From the NCBI RefSeq assembly GCF_014397005.1, contig NZ_JACGWS010000008.1:1-64000 (forward strand): DNA of 64,000 bases. The letters are read 5' to 3'. Made by a program: the position numbers and the translations under genes. The notes below the pieces were generated by a model. It was not told where the DNA came from, did not search any database, and saw nothing but the letters and a program-made list of their open reading frames with translations. Source of the DNA: Kordia aestuariivivens (lineage in GTDB: Bacteria > Bacteroidota > Bacteroidia > Flavobacteriales > Flavobacteriaceae). Below are positions 4,575-17,761 of this stretch, one piece after another; the first letter of the stretch is position 1; each line of letters begins with the position of its first letter.

Positions 4575-5312
4575 ATGTTAAGAGCAATTTTAATCGACGA
4601 CGAACCTAAAGCTTTAGAAAGCTTGTCTTGGGAATTGGAAAACTTTAGCGATGAAATAGAAATTCTAGCAACGTTTACCGATCCTGAAGAAGCCTTATTG
4701 TATATTGAAAAAGCATCATGTGACTGTGTCTTTTTAGATATTGAAATGCCAACAATGGACGGTTTCCAGTTTTTAAATCGGTTGAAATCAAAAGATTTTG
4801 CAGTCGTTATTACAACGGCTTATAACGAATATGCGATGAAAGCATTAAAGGAAGAAGCAATCGATTATTTATTGAAGCCTATTGATATGGATGATTTAAA
4901 AGTGGCGATCTCCAAAATAAAAAAATACATTTCTCGCAATGATGTATCTACCGAAAAGTTTGAGCGTATTTTATCGGATTACAACAGTAGATTCAACAAG
5001 AAACGAATTACCATCAATACAGACGGAAAATTAATTTTTCTCGATTTAGAAGATTTACTATTTGCTGAATCTGATGGAAATTATAGTACCCTATATTTAA
5101 CCAATTCAAAAAAAATAGTGCTTACCAAGAAATTAAAAGAAGTAAATGCCATGTTGCCCGATGAGCGTTTTTTCAGAATTCACAATTCATACATTGTCAA
5201 CCTAGATAAAATAAAGGAATTTATAAAATCTGATGGATATGTAATTTTAGTTTCCAACCATAAAATTCCAATTTCTAGACAGCGAAAGGCAGCTTTTCTA
5301 GAAAAATTATAA
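4575..5312 (+). CDS. LytTR-family response regulator
   Basis: This 245-residue protein has an N-terminal receiver domain (1-120) with acidic residues at IDDEPKA, the phosphoacceptor Asp55 in VFLDIEMPT, the conserved Thr in VVITTAYNEYA and the Lys in YLLKPID. A C-terminal LytTR DNA-binding domain follows (about 140-245, with DGNYSTLY, FFRIHNSYIVNL and PISRQRK). LytTR domains bind direct-repeat promoter sites. The partner kinase starts 16 bases downstream, so the two form a two-component system. Targets are unknown; the divergent surface-protein genes are the nearest candidates. Confidence 0.95.
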   Translation: MLRAILIDDEPKALESLSWELENFSDEIEILATFTDPEEALLYIEKASCDCVFLDIEMPTMDGFQFLNRLKSKDFAVVITTAYNEYAMKALKEEAIDYLLKPIDMDDLKVAISKIKKYISRNDVSTEKFERILSDYNSRFNKKRITINTDGKLIFLDLEDLLFAESDGNYSTLYLTNSKKIVLTKKLKEVNAMLPDERFFRIHNSYIVNLDKIKEFIKSDGYVILVSNHKIPISRQRKAAFLEKL

Positions 5313-5327
5313 GAAAACCCAAAATGT

Positions 5328-7262
5328 ATGTGTAATTTATTTAAGAATGATATCCTACTCATTCTTACCCTCTTTTTTACTTCTATTAGCTTTTCACAAA
5401 CGATTGATAGTGTTTTTGTGAAAGAAGCAAACGCACTTTTGGAAGCAAAACCTACAGCGTATTTTGAGATCAATCAAAAACTAAAAAAATACAATAGAGA
5501 CTCTCTACAACTTCAATATTTAGTCAATCTTTACGAAAAAAATCAATACTTACATGGAGAAAGTTATGCGTTAAATGCGATCGGTATTTACTGTCGAAAT
5601 ACGTCTCAGTACGACAAAGCGATTTTATATCATAATAGAGCGTTAGAGAAAGCAAAAGAAGCAGATGATAAAGAATTACGTGTAAACTCTTTAAACATGT
5701 TAGGCGTTGTGTATAGACGAATAGATGATATTCGCACCGCTTTAGATTACCATCAAGAAGCATTAGCGCTCGCTGAAACCATTGAAGAACGTACCGAATC
5801 CGTAAAAAGAAGTATTGCCGTTTCTCTAAATAGTATGGGAAATATTTTCTTAGTGTTAGAACAATACGACTTGGCAGTACAACGCTTTACAAAGTCAATG
5901 AAAATTGAAGAAAGTGTAGGTAATAAATTGGGCTTAGCAATTAATTATCACAATATAGGATATGCAAAAGAAGCTACGGGCGATTTAGAAGGCGCGTTAA
6001 TTGATTATAAAGAATCATTGCGCTATAATAATGCAATCGATTCTGATTTGGGGCGTGTAATTTGTAATAATACGATTGGTCGAATTTATATTAAACAGAA
6101 AAAATACAAAGAAGCCATTAATATTATTTCCTCTACATTGGAAAGGGCAAAAGGATTGCGTGATAAATTTCACTTGTCAGATGTATATATCAACTTAGGT
6201 TGGGCATATTTGGAGATGGACAATAACCAGCAAGCAAAAAAATATTTAAACGAAGGTTTAGCAATTTCTAAAGAATACAATTTAAAAAGTTCAATAGCTG
6301 AAAGTTATACCCATTTAGCCAATCTTGCTGAAAAGGAAAAAGAGTTTGAAAAAGCATTAAATTTTCAGAAGCAATCGTATGCATTGAATGAAGAAATAAC
6401 AAACGAGAAGAATTTCAAGTATGTGAATGATCTTATTATAAAATATGATAAGGAAAAATTCAATTTACAAATTGAAAACCTTGAAAAAGAAAACGAAAAT
6501 GTAAAGCTTACGCTGAAAAGAAATAAAAGTATTTGGATTACGAGTAGTATCGTGTTGGCGTTTTTGGCGATTATGATTTACATTTTATACCGACAACGTT
6601 TATTAAACAATGAAAAAAAGATTTTAACATTAGAACAAGACATGCTACGAAGTCAAATGAATCCGCATTTTGTGTTTAATTCGTTGAACTCAATCAAGCA
6701 ATACATCATTGCAAATGAGCAAAAAAATGCAGTCCATTACTTAAACAAATTTGCCAAACTCATTCGTAAAATATTAGACGCTTCTCGTGTAAAAGTAGTT
6801 TCGCTTGGCGACGAATTGGAAACGATGGATTTGTATATGAGTATTGAAAACATTCGTTTTTCTAACGAAATTAACTTTGAAGTTTTTGTAGATAATGATA
6901 TTAATCTTGATCAGGTAAAAATTCCTTCGTTGATATTACAACCATTCTTAGAAAACGCACTTTGGCATGGATTGTCTTCTAAAAAAGGACAAAAAAACAT
7001 TAAACTTTCTGTAACAAGTACTGAAAAAAACTTTGTGACAATTGCAATTGCAGATAATGGAATTGGTAGAGAAGCAGCAAAGAAAATTACCGATGATAAA
7101 ATTATAAAACGAAAATCTATTGGAATTGCGTTGACAAGAAATAGGCTTGCTAATTTTGTGAAAAATTTCAAAAACAGTTTCTCCGTAGAATTTCTAGATT
7201 TAAAAGATCAAAACAATACTGCGATCGGAACAGAAGTGGTGATGACTATTCCGTTACATTAA
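5328..7262 (+). CDS. TPR sensor histidine kinase (LytS/YehU-type)
   Basis: This 644-residue protein has a hydrophobic N-terminus (8-24, signal peptide or anchor), about six tetratricopeptide repeats (75-350), a coiled coil (370-400), one TM helix (402-421) and a His_kinase/HATPase module. The H-box is QMNPHFVFNS with His447, the N-box is QPFLENALWHG with Asn543, and the G1 box is IADNGIG (574-580). The TPRs are predicted periplasmic and would sense a protein or peptide signal; the kinase would phosphorylate the upstream LytTR regulator. The ATG at 5328 is the start that keeps the signal sequence and is close to the regulator's stop. Confidence 0.94.
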   Translation: MCNLFKNDILLILTLFFTSISFSQTIDSVFVKEANALLEAKPTAYFEINQKLKKYNRDSLQLQYLVNLYEKNQYLHGESYALNAIGIYCRNTSQYDKAILYHNRALEKAKEADDKELRVNSLNMLGVVYRRIDDIRTALDYHQEALALAETIEERTESVKRSIAVSLNSMGNIFLVLEQYDLAVQRFTKSMKIEESVGNKLGLAINYHNIGYAKEATGDLEGALIDYKESLRYNNAIDSDLGRVICNNTIGRIYIKQKKYKEAINIISSTLERAKGLRDKFHLSDVYINLGWAYLEMDNNQQAKKYLNEGLAISKEYNLKSSIAESYTHLANLAEKEKEFEKALNFQKQSYALNEEITNEKNFKYVNDLIIKYDKEKFNLQIENLEKENENVKLTLKRNKSIWITSSIVLAFLAIMIYILYRQRLLNNEKKILTLEQDMLRSQMNPHFVFNSLNSIKQYIIANEQKNAVHYLNKFAKLIRKILDASRVKVVSLGDELETMDLYMSIENIRFSNEINFEVFVDNDINLDQVKIPSLILQPFLENALWHGLSSKKGQKNIKLSVTSTEKNFVTIAIADNGIGREAAKKITDDKIIKRKSIGIALTRNRLANFVKNFKNSFSVEFLDLKDQNNTAIGTEVVMTIPLH

Positions 7263-7327: not shown

Positions 7328-7522
7328 CTATCCTTTAGTTTTTCTACCTTCAACAGGTCTTCCTGATGTTACTGGGCATGATACATAGAGAGTGTTGGTT
7401 GTTGCCGGAGTGTAAGATGTATTAGTGTTAGTTACTGTTGGATGTTGTCTTTCACCAGCTTTAATATGTTCTAAATTTCCCAGTTTTGAAATAGTTTCCT
7501 TTATAAGATGTAGTTTCTTCAT
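7328..7522 (-). CDS. Precursor-like short peptide (class I lanthipeptide-type leader)
   Basis: This 64-residue peptide has an N-terminus MKKLHLIKETISKL that matches the leader pattern (KxLxLxKETIxxL) of Bacteroidota RiPP precursors related to class I lanthipeptides. The expected GG site is IKAGE. The core (about 25-64) is rich in Thr and Pro with a single Cys (YVSCPV). No LanB, LanC or other modifying enzyme is present in the window, so modification is not shown. The peptide lies 76 bases downstream of the leftward TPR-AraC regulator gene. An 18-bp perfect palindrome sits 70 bases upstream of its start. Confidence 0.68.
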   Translation of the reverse strand: MKKLHLIKETISKLGNLEHIKAGERQHPTVTNTNTSYTPATTNTLYVSCPVTSGRPVEGRKTKG

Positions 7523-7592
7523 AATACTTGTATATGTTTAATTATGGATGTAAATCTATAGTATTCTTGCTTTAAAAAGCAAAAATAAATTT

Positions 7593-7610
7593 GACGATTT
7601 ATAAATCGTC
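7593..7610. promoter_or_regulatory. 18-bp perfect palindrome, candidate operator
   Basis: GACGATTTATAAATCGTC is a perfect inverted repeat that overlaps the stop codon of the TPR-AraC regulator gene and lies 70 bases upstream of the 64-residue peptide gene. Near copies occur at 9418-9435 and 11186-11203, the latter 71 bases upstream of another peptide gene. A binding site for a factor that coordinates these genes is an inference. Confidence 0.5.
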
Positions 7611-9308
7611 ATTCTTTAATTTCTTTAAATAATAGGAAGGAGAGATTCCTGTTTGCTTTTTAAAAACCCTACTAAATGTTTCATGTCTACTAAAACCAAA
7701 TTGCTCTGCAATATATTTAAGTGTATATTGTTGGTAGTCTTTTTCAATTTTCAATTTTACCAAAACTTTATTGATTCGATATTCATTAAGATAATTAGCA
7801 AACGACTTCTTTTTATAGGTATTCACAATTTTAGAAAGATATGAAGTATTCGTCTCAATTTCTTTAGCAACTGAGTTCAAAGTACAACTTGTGGAAAGAA
7901 AATGCTCTGTTTTTTCTAATTCATCTAGTGCCGTTAAAATACGTTTAACCTCTTGATCTTCTATTTTAGTCAAGTTGATAGTGGAAGTAAATTTAGGAGC
8001 TTCTTCCTTTTTTATTTTTTCTAAAATCTCAGACAATTTTTTACTATTATGACGATTCTTCTTATAATAGAATATAGCAATGTACCCAAAAAATAGAATA
8101 CTAAATATGGTAATAAAAATTGTTGTGTATAGATTGCGTGTTGCTTTAGTCTCCAGCTGGAAAATCTTCTTTTCAAGAATTTTTACATCATAAGTTTCGT
8201 GAAGTTTTGCATATAATTTTTGATTGTCTTGCTGAATTTTACCACTAAACTTTTTAAACTTTTCAAAATTGACCTCTGCTTTCTCTTGATCATTGATGTA
8301 TGAATAATTCTTTGCTAATAAAAGATAGATTTCTGGAGCATCATTAAAATAAAAATCTTCATCAGCGATCAATGTATTCGCTTTTTCTAAAATTTCTATA
8401 ACTGTATTGTAGTCTTTTAATTCATCATACAATCTTCCTAAATAGAGGTGTAAAAGTATTGTCCATTTACGATCATTATTTTTTTCAAAATAAACTAATA
8501 CTTCTTGAAATGTGCTTAATGCATTTTCATATTGTTTTGTTTTTTGATACCATTGCCCTAATGTGCTTAAAAATAAAAAAGAACCTTCTTTGTCATTATG
8601 TTGTTGACTCTTTTTTAAGCCTGAATCAATATATGTTTTCACAGAATCTAAATACAACGGGTTTGAATTTGATTTATAGATATCCAAATGCAATTCTCCA
8701 ATAAGATGCAGTGCACTAATTTCACTATAAAAATCATTTTCTTTCCTGTAACTATGTAAAGCAGTTTGTACATCTTTTAATGCTTCATAAGGATTTTGCA
8801 GCTCTTTTTTAATTAATGCAATATTGTTTAAAGCAACCAAAGACATATATGTATCATCGGAGTTTTTAGTAAGTTCTAAGACTTTTTTATAATGCGAAAA
8901 TGCACGCTCTAACGCTCCTTCGCTGTACGCCATGTTTCCTTTAAAATTAAAACAATTGGCTAACATATAAGTATCTTTTGCTTTTAGGGCATAGTATTCA
9001 AGTTTATCAATAGCTTCTTTAAATTTAGCTTTTTCCCCTTGTCTTATATATGTAGATGATAAGTTATAATAAGCTATAGTAATTTTATCTAAATCGTTAC
9101 TTTCTTGGGCTTTTGAGAGCATTTTTTGTGCATACATCTCTGTTTTTAGAAGATCGCTATTTTTGGTAAGCTCGAATAATGAATCAAGTTGATGAAAAGA
9201 AAACTGTTTCAACTCTAGTTGTTGTTCTTGCGCGTAAATGAATAAAGGAACACATAAAAATAGGATGCATATATACTTGTATAAACATAAAGCAGTACTA
9301 TTTTTCAT
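7599..9308 (-). CDS. Membrane TPR regulator with C-terminal AraC-type HTH
   Basis: I choose the start at 9308 (569 residues) because MKNSTALCLYKYICILFLCVPLFIYAQ-type sequence begins there as a proper signal peptide; upstream in-frame starts at 9332 and 9362 would bury it. The order is signal peptide, about seven TPRs (40-360), a TM helix (about 390-410, TIFSILFFGYIAIFYY) and an AraC/XylS HTH pair at the C-terminus (NTSYLSKIVN, then IAEQFGFSRHETFSRVFKKQTG and SPSYY). The TPR part should be periplasmic and the HTH cytosolic, making a one-component signal transducer. It is a paralogue of the product at 16046-17761. A precursor-like peptide gene follows and a secreted protease gene is divergent. 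Confidence 0.88.
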   Translation of the reverse strand: MKNSTALCLYKYICILFLCVPLFIYAQEQQLELKQFSFHQLDSLFELTKNSDLLKTEMYAQKMLSKAQESNDLDKITIAYYNLSSTYIRQGEKAKFKEAIDKLEYYALKAKDTYMLANCFNFKGNMAYSEGALERAFSHYKKVLELTKNSDDTYMSLVALNNIALIKKELQNPYEALKDVQTALHSYRKENDFYSEISALHLIGELHLDIYKSNSNPLYLDSVKTYIDSGLKKSQQHNDKEGSFLFLSTLGQWYQKTKQYENALSTFQEVLVYFEKNNDRKWTILLHLYLGRLYDELKDYNTVIEILEKANTLIADEDFYFNDAPEIYLLLAKNYSYINDQEKAEVNFEKFKKFSGKIQQDNQKLYAKLHETYDVKILEKKIFQLETKATRNLYTTIFITIFSILFFGYIAIFYYKKNRHNSKKLSEILEKIKKEEAPKFTSTINLTKIEDQEVKRILTALDELEKTEHFLSTSCTLNSVAKEIETNTSYLSKIVNTYKKKSFANYLNEYRINKVLVKLKIEKDYQQYTLKYIAEQFGFSRHETFSRVFKKQTGISPSYYLKKLKNDDL

Positions 9309-9379
9309 TATGAAAAAATCAAGGGTTTCCATGCAAAGTAGAAATATTGGATTACATACCAAAATTTAAGTTGGATTAT

Positions 9380-9497
9380 CTGAGCATGTAATTACTGTTT
9401 TTGAATCAAAGAAGCTTGACATTTTATAAATCCTCAAGAAGCCTTTTTTTTATATCTATTTTTTCAATGTTACTTAGCTGTATTATTAACTTAATCA
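9380..9497 (+). promoter_or_regulatory. Upstream element, copy A (protease gene)
   Basis: From CTGAGCA at 9380 to about 9497 this segment aligns with 11151-11262. The best part is GAC(A/G)TTTTATAAATCCTCAA, then AAGCC, a T run, TTTTTTC(A/G)ATGTTA and TTAGC; identity is about 85% by eye over roughly 65 bp. It lies between the leftward regulator gene and the rightward protease gene and contains the near-palindrome at 9418-9435. Confidence 0.65.
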
Positions 9498-9592
9498 AAT
9501 GGAAGCATTCTTTATTGCGATTTTAAGTTTGATAAAAACTATTATCAAATATTGAATGCTAACATAATAACCAAAACAAATATTTATAAATC

Positions 9593-10852
9593 ATGAAAAA
9601 ACATTTTTTGAAATTTTTAGCAATAGCTAGTTTAGCTATCATCGGTTGTCAAACTGAGACTATCGAAAACTCAAATGAGGAGTCAAGTATTCTAAATAAA
9701 AACATCGCCATTTCAGCAACTTTTACCCAAACAGAAAGTTCTCCTATAAAAGGACAATATATTGTTATACTAAATAATGGAGTTTTTAATAAAGCGACAA
9801 ATGGTAAAGGGATTGTTAATTATGAGAGCGCTAAAAAGTCTTTCATGTCTCAAAGTATTGAAAAATTTTCAAATGCCAAATTAGAAAAATCAAGTATTAT
9901 AAATGCTTATGGATTTGCACTTGAAGGTTTTACAGCGAAACTAAATGATGCTCAATTAAAAGTATTGAAAAATGATCCAAGAGTTTCATCAATTGAACAG
10001 GATTATTATGTAGTGCAAAATTTTCCCGCAATAAAAGCTAAACCAGCAGGCGTTGGAAATGGTGGTGGAAACGCAGCACAAGAAGTTCCCTATGGCATTA
10101 CGCGTGTAGGTGGAGGACAAGTCTATACAGGAAGCAAAACTGCTTGGGTGATAGATTCTGGAATTGATTTAGATCATCCAGATCTTAATGTCGATGCGGC
10201 AAGAAGTGCCTCTTATGTTACTAGTGGTGGCGGATCTTCTCCGGATGACCAACATGGACATGGTACTCATGTAGCAGGAACTATTGGAGCAATTGATAAC
10301 AGTATTGGTGTTGTAGGAGTTGCAGCTGGAGTAAATGTAGTAGCAGTAAGAGTAGTAGACAGAAGAGGTTCTGGAGCTGCTTCTTGGTGTGTTTCAGGAG
10401 TTGATTATGTAGCTGCAAATGCGCAAGCAGGAGATGTGGCAAACATGAGTTTAGGGTATCCTGCAAATCCTTCCATTGATCAAGCAGTTATCAATGCATC
10501 AAATTTAGGAATTGAATTTGCTTTAGCCGCTGGAAATGATGGGGCAAATGCAGCAACGGGACCTAGTCCATCACCTGCAAGAGTTAATGGGGCTAATATT
10601 TATACAGTATCTGCTATGGATATAAATGACAATTTTGCTTCTTTTTCAAATTACGGCGAGCCACCAGTTGATTATTGTGCACCTGGAGTAGCTGTTAAAT
10701 CATGCTGGAAAGGCGCTGGTTATAGTACAATAAGCGGAACATCAATGGCATCTCCTCACATGGCAGGTTTGTTAATTTGGGGTAATGTTTCAACGAGTGG
10801 TTTTGTAAATGGAGATCCAGATGGAAACCCAGATCCAATTGCTCATAGATAA
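9593..10852 (+). CDS. Subtilisin-like serine protease (S8), lipoprotein
   Basis: This 419-residue protein has a type II signal peptide ending at Cys19 (LAIIGC), an inhibitor I9 propeptide (about 53-143, QYIVIL...VSSIEQDYYVVQ) and an S8 catalytic domain. The triad is Asp188 (VIDSGIDLDHPDL), His223 (HGHGTHVAGT) and Ser384 (GTSMASPHMAG), with oxyanion Asn315 (AAGND). The length is normal for a minimal extracellular subtilase; there is no T9SS tail. It should mature after propeptide cleavage and act in the envelope. It lies between a TPR-AraC regulator gene and a precursor-like peptide gene and shares an upstream element with that peptide, so a role in peptide maturation or signal processing is possible but unproven. 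Confidence 0.93.
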   Translation: MKKHFLKFLAIASLAIIGCQTETIENSNEESSILNKNIAISATFTQTESSPIKGQYIVILNNGVFNKATNGKGIVNYESAKKSFMSQSIEKFSNAKLEKSSIINAYGFALEGFTAKLNDAQLKVLKNDPRVSSIEQDYYVVQNFPAIKAKPAGVGNGGGNAAQEVPYGITRVGGGQVYTGSKTAWVIDSGIDLDHPDLNVDAARSASYVTSGGGSSPDDQHGHGTHVAGTIGAIDNSIGVVGVAAGVNVVAVRVVDRRGSGAASWCVSGVDYVAANAQAGDVANMSLGYPANPSIDQAVINASNLGIEFALAAGNDGANAATGPSPSPARVNGANIYTVSAMDINDNFASFSNYGEPPVDYCAPGVAVKSCWKGAGYSTISGTSMASPHMAGLLIWGNVSTSGFVNGDPDGNPDPIAHR

Positions 10853-10897
10853 TTACTAGAGAAATTTAATAGCACACAGTTATACAATAAAAATGAG

Positions 10898-10926
10898 AAA
10901 GGATTCCGTACGGAATCCTTTTTTAT
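10898..10926 (+). terminator. Terminator of the protease gene
   Basis: The stem AAAGGATTCCG / CGGAATCCTTT with almost no loop is followed by a T run, 45 bases after the protease stop. Confidence 0.85.
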
Positions 10927-11150
10927 TATGTTAGAAATACACATAAAACCTTATAAATCGTACAGTAAATTTAAGTAATAAATGGTATGCCTGTGAAAGC
11001 TAATTTTATACCTTCTTTCATTAATCGATCTAATATTATGTTTGTACTTAAGTTTAATTTATAAAGCTTCTTTAAATCGCGTTTTGTGCTTGTACTTGGT
11101 AGAAGGTAATTGTTGCTTGGTAGCTTTTACTTATAATTTTATAATCCATA

Positions 11151-11262
11151 CTGAGCAATTGTGGTTTTAAGTCAAAATGCTTCTTGACGTTTTATAAATC
11201 CTCAAAAAGCCTTTTTTTTTCTACTGTTTTTTCGATGTTATTTAGCAGCATTAATAATCTTA
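11151..11262 (+). promoter_or_regulatory. Upstream element, copy B (peptide gene)
   Basis: This is the second copy of the element at 9380-9497. Its near-palindrome GACGTTTTATAAATCCTC (11186-11203) differs from the perfect palindrome at 7593 at two of 18 positions and ends 71 bases before the peptide ATG. A half-like site TTATAAATCGTAC also lies at 10951-10963. The rest of the 10853-11274 gap shows no gene. Confidence 0.65.
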
Positions 11263-11274
11263 AACTTTATAATC

Positions 11275-11502
11275 ATGAAAAAAAAGAATTTAAAAAACTT
11301 AGTCTTAACAAAGGAAACAATTTCTAAAATAAATCCGACAATTGTATATGGAGGAGTAAAAAATGGACGTCCAACAGAGTTGCCTCAACCTCCTATAGAC
11401 ACAATCCGAATTCCGCCAACAACACGGATTCCCGTAGATGTATCTAGAGCAATAACAGTACAACAAACTAACTGCGCAAGTGTTTGTTTTGAGTGTCAAT
11501 AA
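11275..11502 (+). CDS. Precursor-like short peptide with GG leader
   Basis: This 75-residue peptide starts MKKKNLKNLVLTKETISKI and has a double-glycine site YGG at residues 25-27, the classic leader pattern of Bacteroidota RiPP precursors (LxLxKETIxxx...GG). The core holds several Pro and Thr and ends with three Cys (TNCASVCFECQ). Ser/Thr with Cys would allow thioether rings if a modifying enzyme exists, but none is encoded in the window. It follows the protease gene and is preceded by element copy B. Confidence 0.72.
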   Translation: MKKKNLKNLVLTKETISKINPTIVYGGVKNGRPTELPQPPIDTIRIPPTTRIPVDVSRAITVQQTNCASVCFECQ

Positions 11503-11676
11503 ATGACTTTGAGAATACAAAGAAAGCGGTTTTTTACAACCGCTTTCTTTCCTTATCTGTCAATATTTATGTTTTATAAAGAATCCTTTACAATACTATC
11601 TTTCTGAATTGTTGTGGAATCTTTTACAGTATGATATTCTACTAAACTTAGCAATACGTAAATGATTATTAAATTT

Positions 11677-13320
11677 CTATTGATTATCAATTTTTTCAAT
11701 TAATTGTTTAAGCTCATTAGTAATACTATCTTTTATGAACTCTTGTCGCAAGCGCTCTTCTTCAGTATATATTACTTCTTTCGATAAATTTTCAGAAGCT
11801 TGCCATGTTTCACCTAATTGATTTAAAATTTGCGTATTCCATTGTGATGGATGTTTGGCATCAATCCAAACCACATCTTTATACGAAACATCAACCAAGG
11901 CTAAATCGGGTGTAGAACCACCATCAAACTGATCGCTATTTGCACGTTTTGCGGCAATTGTACTCAACATAAATAAACGTCTTTTTCCAGCAATATCGCG
12001 TATAAACGGTCTAAATTCTACAGGTTTATTCACGGTCCAATCGTATTCCTTTTTAGATTCCATCACTTTTGCTGGCATTGCCGAAACACCTGCCAAACCT
12101 TCTTTTCGACTTGCATGATTATAATAGTATACACCTTGACTTCCATCAGCTGGAATAAAAACACTGATGGATAAACCTGTTCGTTTATCGCCAATAGGTT
12201 CCAAACCAAACCAATGATACAAACCGTCATAAGCATTATTCACAGCACCTGTAAACTTGAAATCGGTGACAAATGGTTGTTGATTTTGATCTTCGATTAA
12301 ATCGGGAATTTTCACAGCAGTTTTCTTATTCCATGGCAATGGATCTGTAAATCCGCCTAAAAACATCATCGATTTTGCTTGCAAGCGTGATACTTTTTCA
12401 GAGAGTGTATTTTGTCGTGTTAAGTATGGATATTTTTGAACATCTTCTGCCGAAATAAAAGTTCCTTTTCCAATCAACAAACGCTCAAAATAATCATTAT
12501 GATCTCCTGTTTCTAAAACCATCACGCCACCAAATGTTGGATATGGGAAAAAGAATCCTTTCCATCTAATCAAACTCACAACCTGAACCCAATTTCCAGC
12601 ATCATTCTTCATATAATACGCTTCATGCGGCTCATAATTAAACAATTGCCAAGGATTGAAACGTTGTACAACGGCATTATACGTATTTCTACTAAATGCT
12701 AACGATTCACCAATGGAAAACACTGCGGAAATTCGATTCTCGTTCGCAAAGCGAGGAGAAGGCGATGTACTCGAAACCGAGAATAACTCTTCAATATTAT
12801 CATTCGTACGTTGAATAAAATATTCCTGAGAAGGTTGTACTGCCATTGTCCACTGATTGCGATCGTCTACACGAACCAACTGTGGAGCCGAAACTTCCTG
12901 TGTTTCAGAAATAGATTCGTACGCCATTGTTTTGATATTATTGTACGGTTGAATACGTTCGTTTCGACTCAAAGGTAACTTTGAAATTTCTTGAAGATTC
13001 ATGTCATTAAACACATTGTACGTTTGTATATATTCATACATGCCAACATTCCAAAACAATACATAAATCAGCGCAATAGATGCCAATGTAAGTATTCCTT
13101 TGAATATCTTTTTCATCACGTTTGCAGCTTTCCGAAACGATCGTATTCCGAAATAAATAATGACTACAAATAATAATAAAACAAACAAGTACTTTCTTAA
13201 AAAGAGTAAAAACGGCTGGTAATCATCTCTCAAAATAAAAAGTGCACTAAAAACAATCAATCCTATTATAATTAGAATAATTTTTTGTTTTGCTCCACGG
13301 TTCCAAAATCTTTTTAACAT
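11677..13320 (-). CDS. Unrecognised membrane-anchored protein (547 residues)
   Basis: I do not recognise this family. Three hydrophobic segments (about 13-28, 38-58 and 73-95) are followed by a large soluble domain of about 430 residues rich in aromatic and beta-type sequence (FNPWQLFNYEPHEAYYMK, FFFPYPTFGGVMVLE, YDGLYHWFGLEP). The C-terminal 50 residues are charged and probably helical. It ends a leftward trio: the 415-residue protein, the 172-residue membrane protein, then this one, 10 bases apart. A membrane-complex component is inferred from order only. Confidence 0.8.
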   Translation of the reverse strand: MLKRFWNRGAKQKIILIIIGLIVFSALFILRDDYQPFLLFLRKYLFVLLLFVVIIYFGIRSFRKAANVMKKIFKGILTLASIALIYVLFWNVGMYEYIQTYNVFNDMNLQEISKLPLSRNERIQPYNNIKTMAYESISETQEVSAPQLVRVDDRNQWTMAVQPSQEYFIQRTNDNIEELFSVSSTSPSPRFANENRISAVFSIGESLAFSRNTYNAVVQRFNPWQLFNYEPHEAYYMKNDAGNWVQVVSLIRWKGFFFPYPTFGGVMVLETGDHNDYFERLLIGKGTFISAEDVQKYPYLTRQNTLSEKVSRLQAKSMMFLGGFTDPLPWNKKTAVKIPDLIEDQNQQPFVTDFKFTGAVNNAYDGLYHWFGLEPIGDKRTGLSISVFIPADGSQGVYYYNHASRKEGLAGVSAMPAKVMESKKEYDWTVNKPVEFRPFIRDIAGKRRLFMLSTIAAKRANSDQFDGGSTPDLALVDVSYKDVVWIDAKHPSQWNTQILNQLGETWQASENLSKEVIYTEEERLRQEFIKDSITNELKQLIEKIDNQ

Positions 13321-13330
13321 AGTTCTTATT

Positions 13331-13849
13331 TTATAATAATCCTTTATCTTTTAAACGTTCTCTACCGCTTTTCTTAGGCGTTTCAGGGTCGGTTGAAGTT
13401 TCCTCCGTAGTTGTTTCTTCTTTCGAAAAACTAGCGGCAGCTTCTTGTCCTTTTGTTTTAATATCGTCAATAATATCTTTGCTCGTATCGACAACTTTGT
13501 CAATAATTTCTTCAGATTTGTCTTTTACATCCACCACAAGATTTGCAATATAAATTCCAATCATTGTTCCGATTACTCCAGAAACAAAATATTCTATTCT
13601 AGGACCAAAAGGAAGTAAAAGAAAAACGAGTACAACAATGATAAATAGTATATTCACATAAATCAGTCTTGGAATAAATTCCTGTTGTACAAAAAAACCT
13701 TTTCTGCTTGTCGGCTTCATTTGTAATTCTTCTGAATGTGTAATTTTATTGATTGCTCTATAAAACCAATTATTTTTAGCTTCGAGCCAATACATGGCAA
13801 TTCCAAAAACAATGCTCGATATAAATATGATGATGTCAAATGTGATCAT
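13331..13849 (-). CDS. Small membrane protein with charged tail (172 residues)
   Basis: An N-terminal hydrophobic helix (4-20) and a strong pair of helices (about 62-100: IYVNILFIIVVLVFLLLPFG, then VSGVIGTMIGIYIANLVV) are followed by a long charged tail rich in Asp, Lys, Glu and Thr, ending SGRERLKDKGLL. The tail has YtxH-like character (VKDKSEEIIDKVVDTSKDI), but I would not assign a family. Its ATG overlaps the stop of the upstream gene (ATGA), which points to translational coupling with the 415-residue protein. Confidence 0.82.
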   Translation of the reverse strand: MITFDIIIFISSIVFGIAMYWLEAKNNWFYRAINKITHSEELQMKPTSRKGFFVQQEFIPRLIYVNILFIIVVLVFLLLPFGPRIEYFVSGVIGTMIGIYIANLVVDVKDKSEEIIDKVVDTSKDIIDDIKTKGQEAAASFSKEETTTEETSTDPETPKKSGRERLKDKGLL

Positions 13850-15093
13850 GAGTTCCAGGTGTTTTGTTTAATTAATTTGATGACCCAATCCTGATATGAT
13901 GTGTCCCAAGCGGTATATTCTGTGTAAAATGTTTCTTTGTCATACCAATATAAGAAAAGCGGATCTTTATATGCTGATGTTTTTACAATCAATTTCCAAA
14001 CGAGTTCTTGTTCTTCCATCGGTAATTCTGGTGTTGGAATTTGTATACATGCCAACACTTCGGGCGTTAATCCACCTTCAATATCTAAGGCATTTGCTTT
14101 TTTAGCATTTGCTTGTAAGCGATCTAAAATTTGAACTTGCTTTCGCGCATCAGCGGTTAAACGATTCAAATAGCGTTTGTATACATTTGAATTTTCTAAA
14201 ATTTCATTTAATGAATGTGTTGCATCTTTTATATGTGTTGAAAAAATAATTTTTTGTACACGTTCGTAATAGCCAGAAGCAACACTGTGTTCCGGATCGA
14301 GAACAATCATTTTTTCTGAAGCTAAGGCACTATAAAAACGTCCATCTTCAATATGAAAAGCGTGTGTTTTGCTAGAAGTTTTCACTTTTTCGGCTTGTTC
14401 TTTTGATTCAAAAATTAAAATGTTTTTCCCGCTTCCTTTTCTTCTAAACACAAATACGCCACCAAATGCTCTTGTATAAAATGAACTTGTTTTGTAATCA
14501 ATGCTTTCCATGTGTAGCGTTCGCGATCGCAAATCGCCGTGCTTTCTGGCGGAAGCCAAAATTTTTAAATGTAATTTTTCATCTAAAAAGTTATCGCCTT
14601 GATGAAATTCTTCGACGAGTTGTAATTGTTTTTTTTGTACGCTGTATAAATCGTCAACTACACTAAAATCAATCGTAATTTGATTGTACTTTAATAAATC
14701 TTCTGGTTCGTAAAACGCATCTATGAATTGATCTAAATCGACACAAATAGCTGCATCACGCGTAATATCTTTAATCGCATCTTTATGTTCTTTAAACACT
14801 AAGGTCATAATTTCTCTATCAAAACTATGAAAAGGAGAATACGCAGGTTTTTCGTTTTGCTTTGGCGAAAGAATAATGGCGTTCGGATTGGCTTCACCAG
14901 AATTCAAATACAGAAAGTCATCTTTTTCATCGGCAATTTCTGGGCTCCAACCCATTGCGTCAATATGAAAACTGCGCAATTGTGTGGGTGCGGTTCCAAT
15001 AAAAGAAAGACATTTATTATAGCGTTCTACTAGAGCGCCTGTAACAGGTACTAAGGCTGCGCCAAATAATTCAGATCGTTTTAATTTTTCCAT
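13846..15093 (-). CDS. Uncharacterised conserved protein (415 residues)
   Basis: This soluble protein has no signal peptide or TM helix. It opens with LKRSELFGAALVPVTGALVERYN and has a recognisable SFHIDAMGWSPEIADE stretch. It recalls an uncharacterised DUF family (my memory suggests DUF6638) that elsewhere lies beside AAA+ ATPases; I cannot verify that here. No catalytic motif is evident. It is the first gene of the leftward trio and probably belongs with the AAA+ gene set at 20766-25424, about 5.7 kb away on the same strand. Confidence 0.8.
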   Translation of the reverse strand: MEKLKRSELFGAALVPVTGALVERYNKCLSFIGTAPTQLRSFHIDAMGWSPEIADEKDDFLYLNSGEANPNAIILSPKQNEKPAYSPFHSFDREIMTLVFKEHKDAIKDITRDAAICVDLDQFIDAFYEPEDLLKYNQITIDFSVVDDLYSVQKKQLQLVEEFHQGDNFLDEKLHLKILASARKHGDLRSRTLHMESIDYKTSSFYTRAFGGVFVFRRKGSGKNILIFESKEQAEKVKTSSKTHAFHIEDGRFYSALASEKMIVLDPEHSVASGYYERVQKIIFSTHIKDATHSLNEILENSNVYKRYLNRLTADARKQVQILDRLQANAKKANALDIEGGLTPEVLACIQIPTPELPMEEQELVWKLIVKTSAYKDPLFLYWYDKETFYTEYTAWDTSYQDWVIKLIKQNTWNS

Positions 15094-15269
15094 TCGTTAT
15101 AAAAATTCACCTTTTTAACAAAAATAAGGTATCTCTTGCTAAGATACTTTATAAGTAGCTAATTTTTGTTTCTTGTTACAGATAAAGGAAATAGTGATAA
15201 AATAATTTTTCTTTCAAGCATAAAAAAGTAAATATAAACACAGTGTTTTTGATGAAAACTAGCAGGAGT

Positions 15270-15311
15270 TTTATAGTCTGAAATTCAATAATTAAGAGTC
15301 GAAATTGTTGA
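15270..15311 (+). promoter_or_regulatory. Two spaced AGTC(T)GAAATT motifs before a peptide gene
   Basis: TTTATAGTCTGAAATT and AGTCGAAATTGTT lie about 22 bases apart, two helical turns. A near-identical TTTATAGTCGAAATTGTTAG lies at 16003-16022, upstream of the peptide gene on the other strand. Downstream, TTTTTTTGACG and TACCTTCG (about 15330-15360) resemble -33 and -7 promoter elements with a short spacer. Confidence 0.4.
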
Positions 15312-15390
15312 ATGCCGATTATAGGTGTTTTTTTGACGCTGTGTAGTGCTATACCTTCGATGCATATTAATCTATTAAAATATTAAAAAG

Positions 15391-15570
15391 ATGAAAAAAA
15401 AGAATTTTAAATCGCTTAAGTTGAATAAATCAATTGTAAATTCTTTCTCTGTTTTTGGAGGAGAAGGAAAAACGGAAATGTGTGGATTAGGCTCTTTTGT
15501 TGTTCCTGTTGATTGCCCACTTGGACCTCGTGATGATACTTATGATGTGGGTTGTTCGGATACAATCTAG
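15391..15570 (+). CDS. Precursor-like short peptide with GG leader (59 residues)
   Basis: The ATG at 15391 opens a 59-codon frame. Its leader MKKKNFKSLKLNKSIVNSF is followed by VFGG (residues 21-24), and the 35-residue core has Cys at three places (EMCGLG, VDCPLG, VGCSDTI) plus several Asp. The leader resembles that of the 75-residue peptide at 11275. An A-rich stretch precedes the ATG and a strong terminator follows. No modifying enzyme is seen. Confidence 0.68.
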   Translation: MKKKNFKSLKLNKSIVNSFSVFGGEGKTEMCGLGSFVVPVDCPLGPRDDTYDVGCSDTI

Positions 15571-15617
15571 GAAATTATTAATGTTGCCAATCTAAAAGGT
15601 AGACATGAGATTGAATG

Positions 15618-15658
15618 AAAAAGCCTTAACGTTTATTTAAACAAACGTTAAGGCTTTT
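15618..15658. terminator. Bidirectional terminator between convergent peptide genes
   Basis: AAAAGCCTTAACGTTT / AAACGTTAAGGCTTTT forms a 16-bp stem around a short ATTTAAAC-type loop, with an A run before and a T run after. It serves the rightward peptide gene at 15391 and the leftward one at 15694. Confidence 0.88.
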
Positions 15659-15693
15659 AAATTCTTTTTTACTGTAAACGTAGCATGTCATTC

Positions 15694-15945
15694 CTAAATT
15701 AAGCAATTTGATTCTTTTGTTTTAGCACTTCCATTTTGTCTAGTTGCACCAGGTGTAGTAGCTGTGCAAGGACTAAATATATTTGTAGTATTATTACAAC
15801 CTTCACAGTTTGTTAGGCAAGTTATAGAGTTGTTACCTGTGTTATCACAAATTGTATCAGTATTAGAATTTTCTGATTTACCAATGATTTGATGCACATT
15901 TCCAATTGCTGCAATTTGAATTTTTTTTAACGTTAATTTTTTCAT
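15694..15945 (-). CDS. Cys-rich precursor-like peptide (83 residues)
   Basis: The N-terminus MKKLTLKKIQIAAIGNVHQIIGK fits a RiPP-type leader, with IGK in place of GG. The core has six Cys, five of them between about residues 33 and 57 (DTICDN, ITCLTNCEGC, FSPC) and one near the end (NCLI), with many Thr, Ser and Asn. It lies 100 bases downstream of the TPR-AraC regulator gene at 16046, mirroring the regulator-peptide order at 7328-9308. Confidence 0.65.
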   Translation of the reverse strand: MKKLTLKKIQIAAIGNVHQIIGKSENSNTDTICDNTGNNSITCLTNCEGCNNTTNIFSPCTATTPGATRQNGSAKTKESNCLI

Positions 15946-16045
15946 GTGTCTAAATATTTATTTTTTGGCTAATATAGAAGTCTACTTCTCTGAATTCAAG
16001 CCTTTATAGTCGAAATTGTTAGATTTAGAGCACTATTTTGCAGTA

Positions 16046-17761
16046 TTATGATGCTGTCTCGTTTAGCTTTTTTATGTAATATGAAGGATACAGTTTGGTA
16101 CGTCTTTTAAAATCTTTGGAGAATGATTCTGCAGAGTTATACCCTAATTCAGAAGCGATTGATTTGATATTATACGCTCTAAATTTTTTATCAGTTTGGA
16201 GTTTTTCCAAAGCGTAGTCAATGCGAAGATCCGTAATGTATTGGATAAACTTTTTTTGCTTGTGAATTTGAATCACTTTTGATAAATATGTACTATTTGT
16301 ATTCGTTTTGTTAGCTACAAAGTTTAAAGAACAATTCTTTTTTAGAAATTGTTCATTCTTTTCAAAACTATCTAATCCTTGTAAAATTTTTAAAACATTT
16401 TCTTTACTGATGTTGATCTCTTTAGAAGACGATTTTTTATCTTTTGGATTTTTTAATTCTTCTACAATTAGTTGAAATTGTTTGCTATTTTGTGATTGTC
16501 TTCTTTTGTAATAGCCAATAATAATTATGATGATGAATAGTAAGGAAAAAACTATAATTCCATGGTTGTATTTTTTCTCTTCAAGATTATTTTGTAGCAA
16601 ATCAATTTTGTCTTTAAAAACGACTACATCATATTTTTTATATAGCTTTTCTTGACCTTGCTGACTTAAATCATCATTTTTTGCATCTTTTTGATAGAAT
16701 AAATTAAAGTATTTAATAGCGTTTTCTGAATCACTTTTTTGTTCATATGACTTAGCCATCAGAATATACAATTCTTGTAAATCTGGAAAATCTGCTTTCG
16801 TTTGTTTTATTAAAGAATCTGTTTTGGTAAAGTATGTAATGGCTTTATCATAGTTGCCTTTTACATAATAGTTTTTACCTCTATACAGGTATAAGATTAA
16901 AAGTCGATTCGGAAGGTGTAGATTATATATTAAATCTTCCGCTTTTATTAAATCGGTGGTTGATTGCTCAATGTTTCCTTCTTCATGATGAATAATACCT
17001 TTGAGTCTTAACGATATAGCAAATGCTTCATTATCATTGTAGTGCAAGCTTTTGTCTATAGCAATAGTATTGTAGTAATGTGCAGAATCTAAATATTTTT
17101 TTTCACTTTTCCCTTTGTCTATGAATAGATTTGTATAAATGTCACTTATTGTCATGAGTGAATTAATATACGCGACACTATATTTTTCACCATCTTCCTG
17201 TTTTACTAAATTTTCATAAAAAGGAATACTTTTTTTGATCAAATTCAATGCATCTGCGTTGTCGCCAATTTGTGTTTTTATCAACGCAATGTCATTGGCA
17301 ACATTTGCTTGAGCAAAGAGATCATTTTTCTTTTTAGCTATGTCATATACCTTTGTGTAATATTCTATAGCTTGTATATAATCTCCAAATTCATAATAAA
17401 TACTGCCTTTTAAATATAGATGATTGAAAACAAGCTCTTCATCATTTTCGACTTCTTTTATAGCTATATTTATGTGATGTAAAGCACTGTCTTTATTTCT
17501 TAATGTGCTAAAAATACTAGCTAATTGATAATGAATTTTATGTTTTTTAAGCGCTGTATTTTTATTGGATGCTTTTTTTAAAAGAGAGAGTAAGTATTCT
17601 TTTGCTACAATAGGATTTGTTTTTTGGTATTGATAAAATCCTTTTTTTAAACTATCAATTGATAGTTCTTTCAAATCGTTCTGAATTATTTTCTTAGAAG
17701 TTTGCGCATTAGAAAAATTGAAGAAAATAATAAATATAAGTGTGAAGAATAGCTTATTCAT
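16046..17761 (-). CDS. Membrane TPR regulator with C-terminal AraC-type HTH
   Basis: This 571-residue protein has a signal peptide (MNKLFFTLIFIIFFNFSNAQ), about seven TPRs (50-370), a TM helix (about 400-416, IIVFSLLFIIIIIIGYY) and an AraC/XylS-type C-terminus (NSTYLSKVIQ, then IASELGYNSAESFSKDFKRRTK and YPSYYIKKL). It is a clear paralogue of the product at 7599-9308, with matching domain order and HTH sequence. Predicted topology puts the TPRs in the periplasm and the HTH in the cytosol. The S26 peptidase gene ends 33 bases upstream and a Cys-rich peptide gene follows, so the three may be cotranscribed. Confidence 0.88.
   Translation of the reverse strand: MNKLFFTLIFIIFFNFSNAQTSKKIIQNDLKELSIDSLKKGFYQYQKTNPIVAKEYLLSLLKKASNKNTALKKHKIHYQLASIFSTLRNKDSALHHINIAIKEVENDEELVFNHLYLKGSIYYEFGDYIQAIEYYTKVYDIAKKKNDLFAQANVANDIALIKTQIGDNADALNLIKKSIPFYENLVKQEDGEKYSVAYINSLMTISDIYTNLFIDKGKSEKKYLDSAHYYNTIAIDKSLHYNDNEAFAISLRLKGIIHHEEGNIEQSTTDLIKAEDLIYNLHLPNRLLILYLYRGKNYYVKGNYDKAITYFTKTDSLIKQTKADFPDLQELYILMAKSYEQKSDSENAIKYFNLFYQKDAKNDDLSQQGQEKLYKKYDVVVFKDKIDLLQNNLEEKKYNHGIIVFSLLFIIIIIIGYYKRRQSQNSKQFQLIVEELKNPKDKKSSSKEINISKENVLKILQGLDSFEKNEQFLKKNCSLNFVANKTNTNSTYLSKVIQIHKQKKFIQYITDLRIDYALEKLQTDKKFRAYNIKSIASELGYNSAESFSKDFKRRTKLYPSYYIKKLNETAS

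Follow-up and report, generated by a model that had tools for sequence, protein, structure and literature searches.

Why do genes for short leader-type peptides lie directly behind genes for membrane-bound regulators in Kordia aestuariivivens? The question is raised by an island (positions 7328 to 17761) in the window, by which we mean the whole 64,000-nucleotide (nt) stretch analyzed from contig NZ_JACGWS010000008.1 of this species. Two paralogous regulators, each with a signal peptide, tetratricopeptide repeats (TPRs), a transmembrane (TM) helix and an AraC-type helix-turn-helix (HTH), stand there among four short peptide open reading frames (ORFs), and the original prediction read the arrangement as peptide signalling across the inner membrane. 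We call such a regulator R, the leader-type peptide gene directly 3′ of it P, and a second class of GG peptide with a Cys-rich core E; numbered labels beginning with L, G and C denote loci, genomes and contigs of the source ("own") genome. On balance, each R-P pair appears to be one channel of a multichannel peptide autoinduction system across the inner membrane, a reading in which our confidence is better than even. Linkage, covariation and palindromic candidate operators support the signalling part of the original prediction, while ligand and DNA binding are steps that we infer.

R and P are linked throughout the genus. The comparison comprised the own genome and ten other Kordia genomes (11 in all), each of which holds 15 to 47 matches to the R profile, at least 305 together at E ≤1e-40 among the best 125 candidates scored per genome. 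In the stretches searched, the own genome has 40 such matches, 35 of them full length, and P lies directly 3′ of 32 of these 35. Conserved pairing in relatives, whose absence would have refuted the original prediction, was found for 89 of 94 R in the ten other genomes; this is the independent count, because the 32 own peptides trained the leader profile by which P was detected. The 94 R were taken from the best-scoring listed part of the 305 genus matches and comprise 27 loci, 60 regions (some with two R), L190 and L191, and three further records, with duplicates merged. Two TPR histidine kinases that match the R profile (window position 5328 and L191:209) were excluded; their inclusion changes the counts to 32/36 and 89/95. 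Pooled over the genus, 121 of 129 R have a P, versus a P-like gene behind 7 of 238 control genes at the same score (10 at a score of 4, 8 at 6, and 7 at 8 to 12), and several of the control matches turn out to be leader peptides that neighbour a LanB C-terminal gene.

P lies on the same strand as R after a gap with a median of 96.5 nt (76 to 209 nt, 5th to 95th percentile). It behaves as a constrained coding gene, since its pooled ratio of nonsynonymous to synonymous differences per site (pN/pS) is 0.47 (166 orthologue-like pairs; synonymous sites near saturation). The leaders of the 32 own P align as the LxLxKx5L/GG type, some of them non-canonical. E peptides carry the leader LNKKSISNL and a core that is shorter and more Cys-rich than that of P; 96 E cores, selected by motif, also contain more aromatic and fewer acidic residues. 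In hand-picked sets, the family model NF038153 matched 11 of 16 E and 4 of 16 P at E ≤1. Rows of closely related short peptides with core ends such as, e.g., CITSCxxH or CATSCHAH lie beside some R-P pairs (L016:84-976, L082, L121, L133, L136, L141, L149), where the adjoining P has a MKVKxxQKMxLKK-like leader.

Candidate operators lie upstream of P. A centred palindrome scan of the 130 nt upstream of P, which superseded a first fixed-arm dyad scan, examined 140 pairs, of which 35 have a palindrome scoring higher than the 99th percentile for resampled sequence; in 34 of these 35, the distance from its centre to the P start codon is 70 to 100 nt (median, 78.5). The palindromes are channel specific (TGACGATTTATAAATCGTCA, TCGTATTTATATAAATACGA, and TATCGTGATATTTGTAAATATCACGATA are examples), and their centre is mostly A+T-rich. 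Of 121 R-P gaps, 47 contain a promoter-like TTG-N17..22-TAnnTT element (15 expected), with a median start 56 nt before P. Among 70 Kordia pairs with a palindrome score ≥7.5, a second cognate copy (≤4/20 mismatches) occurs in the locus for 37, versus 26 of 700 for the non-cognate control; 29/70 remain after subtraction of those belonging to another P. By our reading, second copies lie before E (∼17), R (∼14), or another P (∼8), with few before neither, and several of those before R are shared with a divergent E gene.

The two ends of the regulator covary with different elements. Over 108 pairs, the palindrome covaries with the HTH given the TPR domain (0.190) but not with the TPR domain given the HTH (0.022); the raw correlation of 0.229 was reached in 0 of 300 permutations. 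Over 122 Kordia pairs, the P core shows the reverse (0.095 with the TPR domain given the HTH, −0.006 with the HTH given the TPR domain), a difference whose sign held in all 60 subsamples. For the leader, there is covariation with the TPR domain as well as the HTH (0.154 and 0.131; 43 of 60 subsamples). Though small, this covariation matches the pattern expected if the TPR domain were to read the core and the HTH the palindrome.

Both pairs of the island can be set against this genus-wide picture, with the following features in the window.

7328..7522, minus strand: P1, leader peptide paired with R1; degenerate site KAGE (GG in two orthologues, in L190 and L191)
7592..7611, plus strand: palindrome TGACGATTTATAAATCGTCA ahead of P1, from the palindrome scan; candidate operator of R1
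7599..9308, minus strand: R1, regulator with signal peptide, predicted periplasmic TPR, TM helix, and cytosolic AraC HTH; the ORF opens at 9362, and the ATG at 9308 was chosen
9417..9436, plus strand: R1-type candidate operator, 3 mismatches, between R1 and the subtilase gene, within a 75-nt repeat
9593..10852, plus strand: subtilase (I9 propeptide; lipobox by eye), predicted to belong to the R1 regulon
11185..11204, plus strand: R1-type candidate operator, 2 mismatches, 90 nt upstream of peptide 11275
11275..11502, plus strand: E1, GG-leader precursor (YGGV) whose leader resembles those of class I lanthipeptides; NF038153 match at 16.5 bits (cut-off, 22)
15297..15309, plus strand: R2-type half-site AGTCGAAATTGTT upstream of E2
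15391..15570, plus strand: E2, GG-leader precursor (FGGE); counterpart at L191:8338
15694..15945, minus strand: P2, leader peptide paired with R2; site IGKS (GG in 4 orthologues)
16008..16020, plus strand: R2-type half-site AGTCGAAATTGTT ahead of P2; the orthologues L146 and L225 have the full palindrome
16046..17761, minus strand: R2, regulator with signal peptide, TPR, TM helix, and AraC HTH

All four peptide ORFs are where the original prediction placed them (7328, 11275, 15391, and 15694), and two of them do lie just 3′ of paralogous regulators: from R stop codon to peptide start on the same strand is 77 nt for P1 and 101 nt for P2, and R1 and R2 are 32% identical. The two clear GG sites that it noted are also real but belong to E1 and E2, neither of which is paired with R. 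NF038153 matches both P1 and E1 below its cut-off, and E2 has no NCBIfam match at E ≤1. In L190 and L191, where the R1 orthologues are L190:16532-18253 and L191:2444-4162, synteny extends over both R-P pairs, both E positions, and the cassette at 11677-15093.

At ≤3 mismatches, the R1 palindrome is matched at exactly three places in the window (0.02 expected): before P1, in the gap between R1 and the subtilase gene, and before 11275. It recurs with 2 to 5 mismatches before the P1 and 11275 counterparts in L190 and L191. Genome-wide, there are 8 places at ≤3 mismatches versus 1 for a reversed control pattern, per strand; besides the 3 in the island, they comprise another R's own operator (C34), C1:396280, C14:6237, and two on C42, and at C1:396280 and C14:6237 there is no leader gene. 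For R2, half-site AGTCGAAATTGTT occurs in two exact copies in the window, before P2 and before 15391, and with one mismatch at 16470 and 28823 (0.21 expected in all); TCGAAATTGTT stands at the equivalent positions of L191, and L190 has it there with one mismatch. The shared half-site suggests that R2 may control both P2 (15694) and 15391.

The island's two peptidases, a secreted subtilase and an S26 peptidase, do adjoin these genes as first described, but neither was found at its corresponding place in the gene lists of L190 and L191 (these loci being the only part of either genome examined for them). Upstream of the subtilase gene lies a copy (84% over 75 nt) of the region upstream of 11275, so the subtilase probably joined the R1 regulon through promoter duplication. 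We rejected it as a conserved protease partner because, besides its absence at that place, it bears only a remote likeness (33 bits) to an S8 lipoprotein encoded after a P. The S26 peptidase (17795) was likewise rejected, since no gene of matching size stands beside R2 in L190 or L191; its presence in the island looks incidental. Three genes (415, 172, and 547 amino acids [aa]) make up the cassette between the two R-P pairs. On the other side, at 4575-7262, a LytTR-type response regulator (by eye) and a TPR histidine kinase adjoin P1; a similar kinase adjoins P1 in L191 and partly in L190.

The predicted regulator architecture was borne out by domain matches and by an AlphaFold model. R1 and R2 contain TPR domains and an AraC HTH in the family search (PF12833, 49.6 and 50.4 bits; cut-off, 33.6). 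The model of R2 (98-row alignment; mean predicted local distance difference test score, 92.3) consists, in order, of an N-terminal helix, a TPR superhelix (residues 27-341), a long TM-containing helix (345-437), and the HTH (453-570). Among 141 paired R, a hydrophobic segment is found at the N-terminus in 133 and between the TPR and HTH domains in 140, and net positive charge is higher on the C-terminal side of the latter segment in 131; from these sequence features, the TPR domain should be periplasmic. Paralogues of the own genome share on average 22% identity in the TPR domains and 46% in the HTHs. In sequence and fold, the TPR domain resembles peptide-binding TPR proteins, including RapF, RapJ, and NprR.

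Some relatives depart from the paired form. L182:4536-16678 (G087) encodes seven tandem TPR-TM-AraC R, with intergenic gaps too short for peptide genes. Short relatives that match the R profile (233 to 247 aa) are encoded at L042:13807-14541, L043:12631-13356, L048:7798-8499, and L052:2605-3348; in the L042 protein, whose gene adjoins that of a C39 ATP-binding cassette (ABC) exporter, Pfam identifies an AraC HTH but no TPR. A 52-aa hydrophobic ORF follows three of them, and a 27-aa ORF with a similar C-terminus follows the fourth.

Beyond the genus, a strong R match occurs in at least 32 of 120 genomes drawn from the family (own genome included; best 11 candidates scored per genome) and in at least 23 of 296 drawn from the phylum (best 4). 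Of 76 R examined in loci from both draws and in longer contexts, 19 have a P. Gene names in the long contexts rest on family matches and likeness. L176 to L180 share the gene order LanB, LanB C-terminal gene, R, and P, with a C39 ABC exporter and HlyD nearby in L177 and L180; we discarded a sigma/anti-sigma identity for gene pairs in the short loci because longer contexts show them to be a LanB piece and the LanB C-terminal gene. Co-occurrence was counted in 16 hand-picked family genomes, nine from other genera with a known pair and seven others whose fetched R had no P: C39 exporters are present in 9/9 versus 1/7 (P value, 0.0009), and LanB is present in 7/9 versus 0/7 (P value, 0.003). Two of the nine pair-bearing genomes have both LanB and LanC, five have only LanB, and two have neither. 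In the own genome, a split LanB, LanC, and C39/HlyD set on C16 encloses two R-P pairs; thus, the prediction that no maturase of ribosomally synthesized and post-translationally modified peptides (RiPPs) is present holds for the window region but not for the genome, which also has a LanM-like gene on C34, LanC on C44, a weak LanC match on C17, and a second C39 exporter on C1. RiPP biosynthesis and signalling seem to be connected and not competing explanations, because the peptides are probably substrates of C39 exporters and, in many lineages, of LanB.

Could R instead sense a finished or related product, as in nisin autoinduction, with P and E being lanthipeptide-like antimicrobials and P a bacteriocin rather than a dedicated pheromone? 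R within a LanB operon with P adjoining, as seen in five contexts of other genera, is what this explanation would predict, as are the L178 palindromes, one preceding P and the other, at 3 mismatches, preceding LanB, and the Cys residues in 134 of 141 P cores. However, G120 and G090 have an R-P pair whose P is free of Cys and no LanB match anywhere in the genome, LanC is missing from 5 of the 7 LanB-positive pair genomes, and E and P cores differ in composition as if they had separate jobs. We consider product sensing unlikely, though it is the rival that best survives. Given G120, G090, and the LanC gaps, LanB modification appears common but dispensable for the pair, and "lanthipeptide" is an unsafe name for P; the LanB-less and LanC-less pair genomes rule out P being an ordinary lanthipeptide in every lineage.

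Other biosynthetic genes lie near these loci. Sigma-like and anti-sigma-like genes (by eye) are upstream of LanC on C16. A LanM-like synthetase (L045:9360-12233) and a LanC gene (L044:8952-12349) have a phosphotransferase-type gene nearby, and a leader scan beside them yielded no convincing precursor. Leader peptides also lie beside ATP-grasp (graspetide)-like genes (by eye) near the LanB-R-P operon (L176:13527-15745 and L178:1604-5932).

The idea of a processing protease, which the original prediction raised for the island, fits the pairs of other genera. Among 13 pairs with 14 to 20 kb of context, 12 could be tested (L179 meets its contig end), and the gene next after P encodes an S8 or S9 protease in 8 (L176, L177, L178, L180, L181, L184, L185, and L186; in L177, a 302-aa ORF); P is often followed there by a serine-protease lipoprotein. 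Seven of ten post-P proteins scanned are S8 subtilases, while L184 and L185 encode S9 prolyl oligopeptidases; P is short in both and proline-rich in L185. D84, H298, and S465 are invariant across 7 aligned S8 subtilases and presumably form their catalytic triad. S8 was sought in all pairs and S9 in the ten proteins only; in Kordia, the S8 type follows P in 2 of 122 pairs, both in the own genome, and the window peptidases are not the conserved ones.

It is improbable, in our estimate, that R senses some other cue, be it envelope stress, a nutrient, or a peptide of foreign origin, with P and E as mere outputs. AraC regulators usually sense other cues, and 57 of 76 R outside the genus are without P (19 have one), a count that also weighs against autoinduction; on the other side, the P core covaries with the sensor domain rather than the HTH, for which an output-only model gives no reason. 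Slightly less probable still is that R is a repressor, or that P shuts its own channel down as a negative feedback ligand. The direction of control is unreadable from sequence, but the likely promoter has the palindrome on its upstream side, where activators usually sit. That common Bacteroidota genes became neighbours by chance or were transferred together, conceivable because R and leader peptides both abound in Kordia, can be set aside given the pairing excess over controls (121/129 versus 7/238), the shared strand, the narrow gap, and the recurrence in other genera.

We return to peptide autoinduction, which could operate as follows. P would be made with its LxLxKx5L/GG leader, which a C39 ABC exporter would cut while exporting the peptide; in some lineages LanB may modify P before export, and an S8 or S9 lipoprotein protease may trim it. 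The mature core would then be bound by the periplasmic TPR superhelix of the cognate R, and the signal would pass through the single TM helix to the cytosolic AraC domain, which would bind the channel-specific palindrome ∼80 nt upstream of P and raise P transcription. Further putative targets are R itself in some channels, nearby Cys-rich GG peptides (E), and, outside Kordia, LanB.

Several observations weigh against this reading. C39/HlyD exporters are expected to deliver their substrates outside the cell, so the return to the periplasm is unexplained. The fold search placed consensus TPR proteins and LGN at the top by E-value, with the first Rap at rank 39. P was not detected for 8 of the 129 Kordia R, although one of these, L175, has a candidate on reading (score 3.6; entered by hand in the core and covariation analyses and left out of the linkage count). 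P1 and P2 lack a canonical GG in the window. Most pairs have no strong palindrome, and while one with a score ≥6 is present at −68 to −100 in 108 of 140 pairs, shuffled 130-nt stretches reach a best score of about 6 on average. The R2 palindrome is degenerate in the window, and a second palindrome precedes LanB in only one of five LanB contexts outside Kordia. Finally, the raw rank correlation between P core and TPR domain is weak (0.10) and smaller than that of the leader.

For Kordia, we give roughly even credence to a more specific version: up to ∼35 insulated peptide channels per cell, each R having its own exported peptide and operator and choosing from a large stock of RiPP-type effector peptides. 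These channels may have originated from one R-P unit in split-LanB operons of Flavobacteriaceae that was then amplified, with TPR/core and HTH/operator diverging as two lock-and-key pairs.

Known peptide receptors share parts of this design. RRNPP receptors (Rap, NprR, PlcR, and Rgg) have a cytosolic TPR domain with an N-terminal XRE HTH or phosphatase domain. Like the R-P pairs, RRNPP systems place a TPR receptor gene beside a propeptide gene (see the account in PMC10075063, as far as it covers them), and the RapF, RapJ, and NprR matches fit this likeness. In R, however, the TPR domain should lie outside the inner membrane, a TM helix follows, and the AraC HTH is C-terminal; P differs from RRNPP propeptides in having a GG leader and no Sec signal, and re-import to the cytosol would not be needed. 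Gram-positive GG-pheromone circuits (Blp, Com, and plantaricin) and nisin autoinduction rely on a histidine kinase and a response regulator. The R-P system resembles these systems in its GG leader, C39 exporter, and shared operator before pheromone and bacteriocin genes; it differs from them in having a one-component membrane regulator and tens of parallel channels in a Gram-negative bacterium.

Class I lanthipeptide precursors of Bacteroidetes have an LxLxKx5L leader and a GG site, as described by Walker et al. (2020; PMC7268733). P and E resemble those precursors in leader, GG site, and C39 exporter, and split LanB is found in several contexts and on Kordia C16; unlike them, P is also found where LanB is missing, and Cys-free forms exist. 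The terms "AraC" and "tetratricopeptide" are absent from the main text of that paper. TPR proteins near RiPP precursors and C39 exporters have been noted in Bacteroidales RiPP clusters (PMC10352776) and at graspetide loci (PMC8939145); in the former, the TPR genes sit in clusters BGC2 and 9, apart from the HTH gene of BGC3. The sections of these two papers that were consulted contain no peptide-paired TPR-TM-AraC protein, and those of PMC10734526 and PMC7477175 do not describe the pairing. No title or abstract opening reporting it was found for Bacteroidetes or Kordia RiPPs, TPR-AraC proteins, quorum sensing, or AraC palindromes among literature that included few subscription papers and no preprints; because of this coverage, novelty is unproven. 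We found no description of this kind of receptor in the literature searched, and the channel-specific palindromes ∼80 nt upstream of P are new here.

Peptide quorum sensing is known mainly from Gram-positive bacteria. If our reading is true, R-P pairs would be a Bacteroidota counterpart in which a periplasmic sensor and a DNA-binding domain share one chain. The 122 Kordia pairs, 70 of them with a palindrome score ≥7.5, would then be a natural library for the specificity of TPR-peptide and AraC-operator recognition, and may be of use as orthogonal inducible switches or for waking silent RiPP clusters with the matching peptide.

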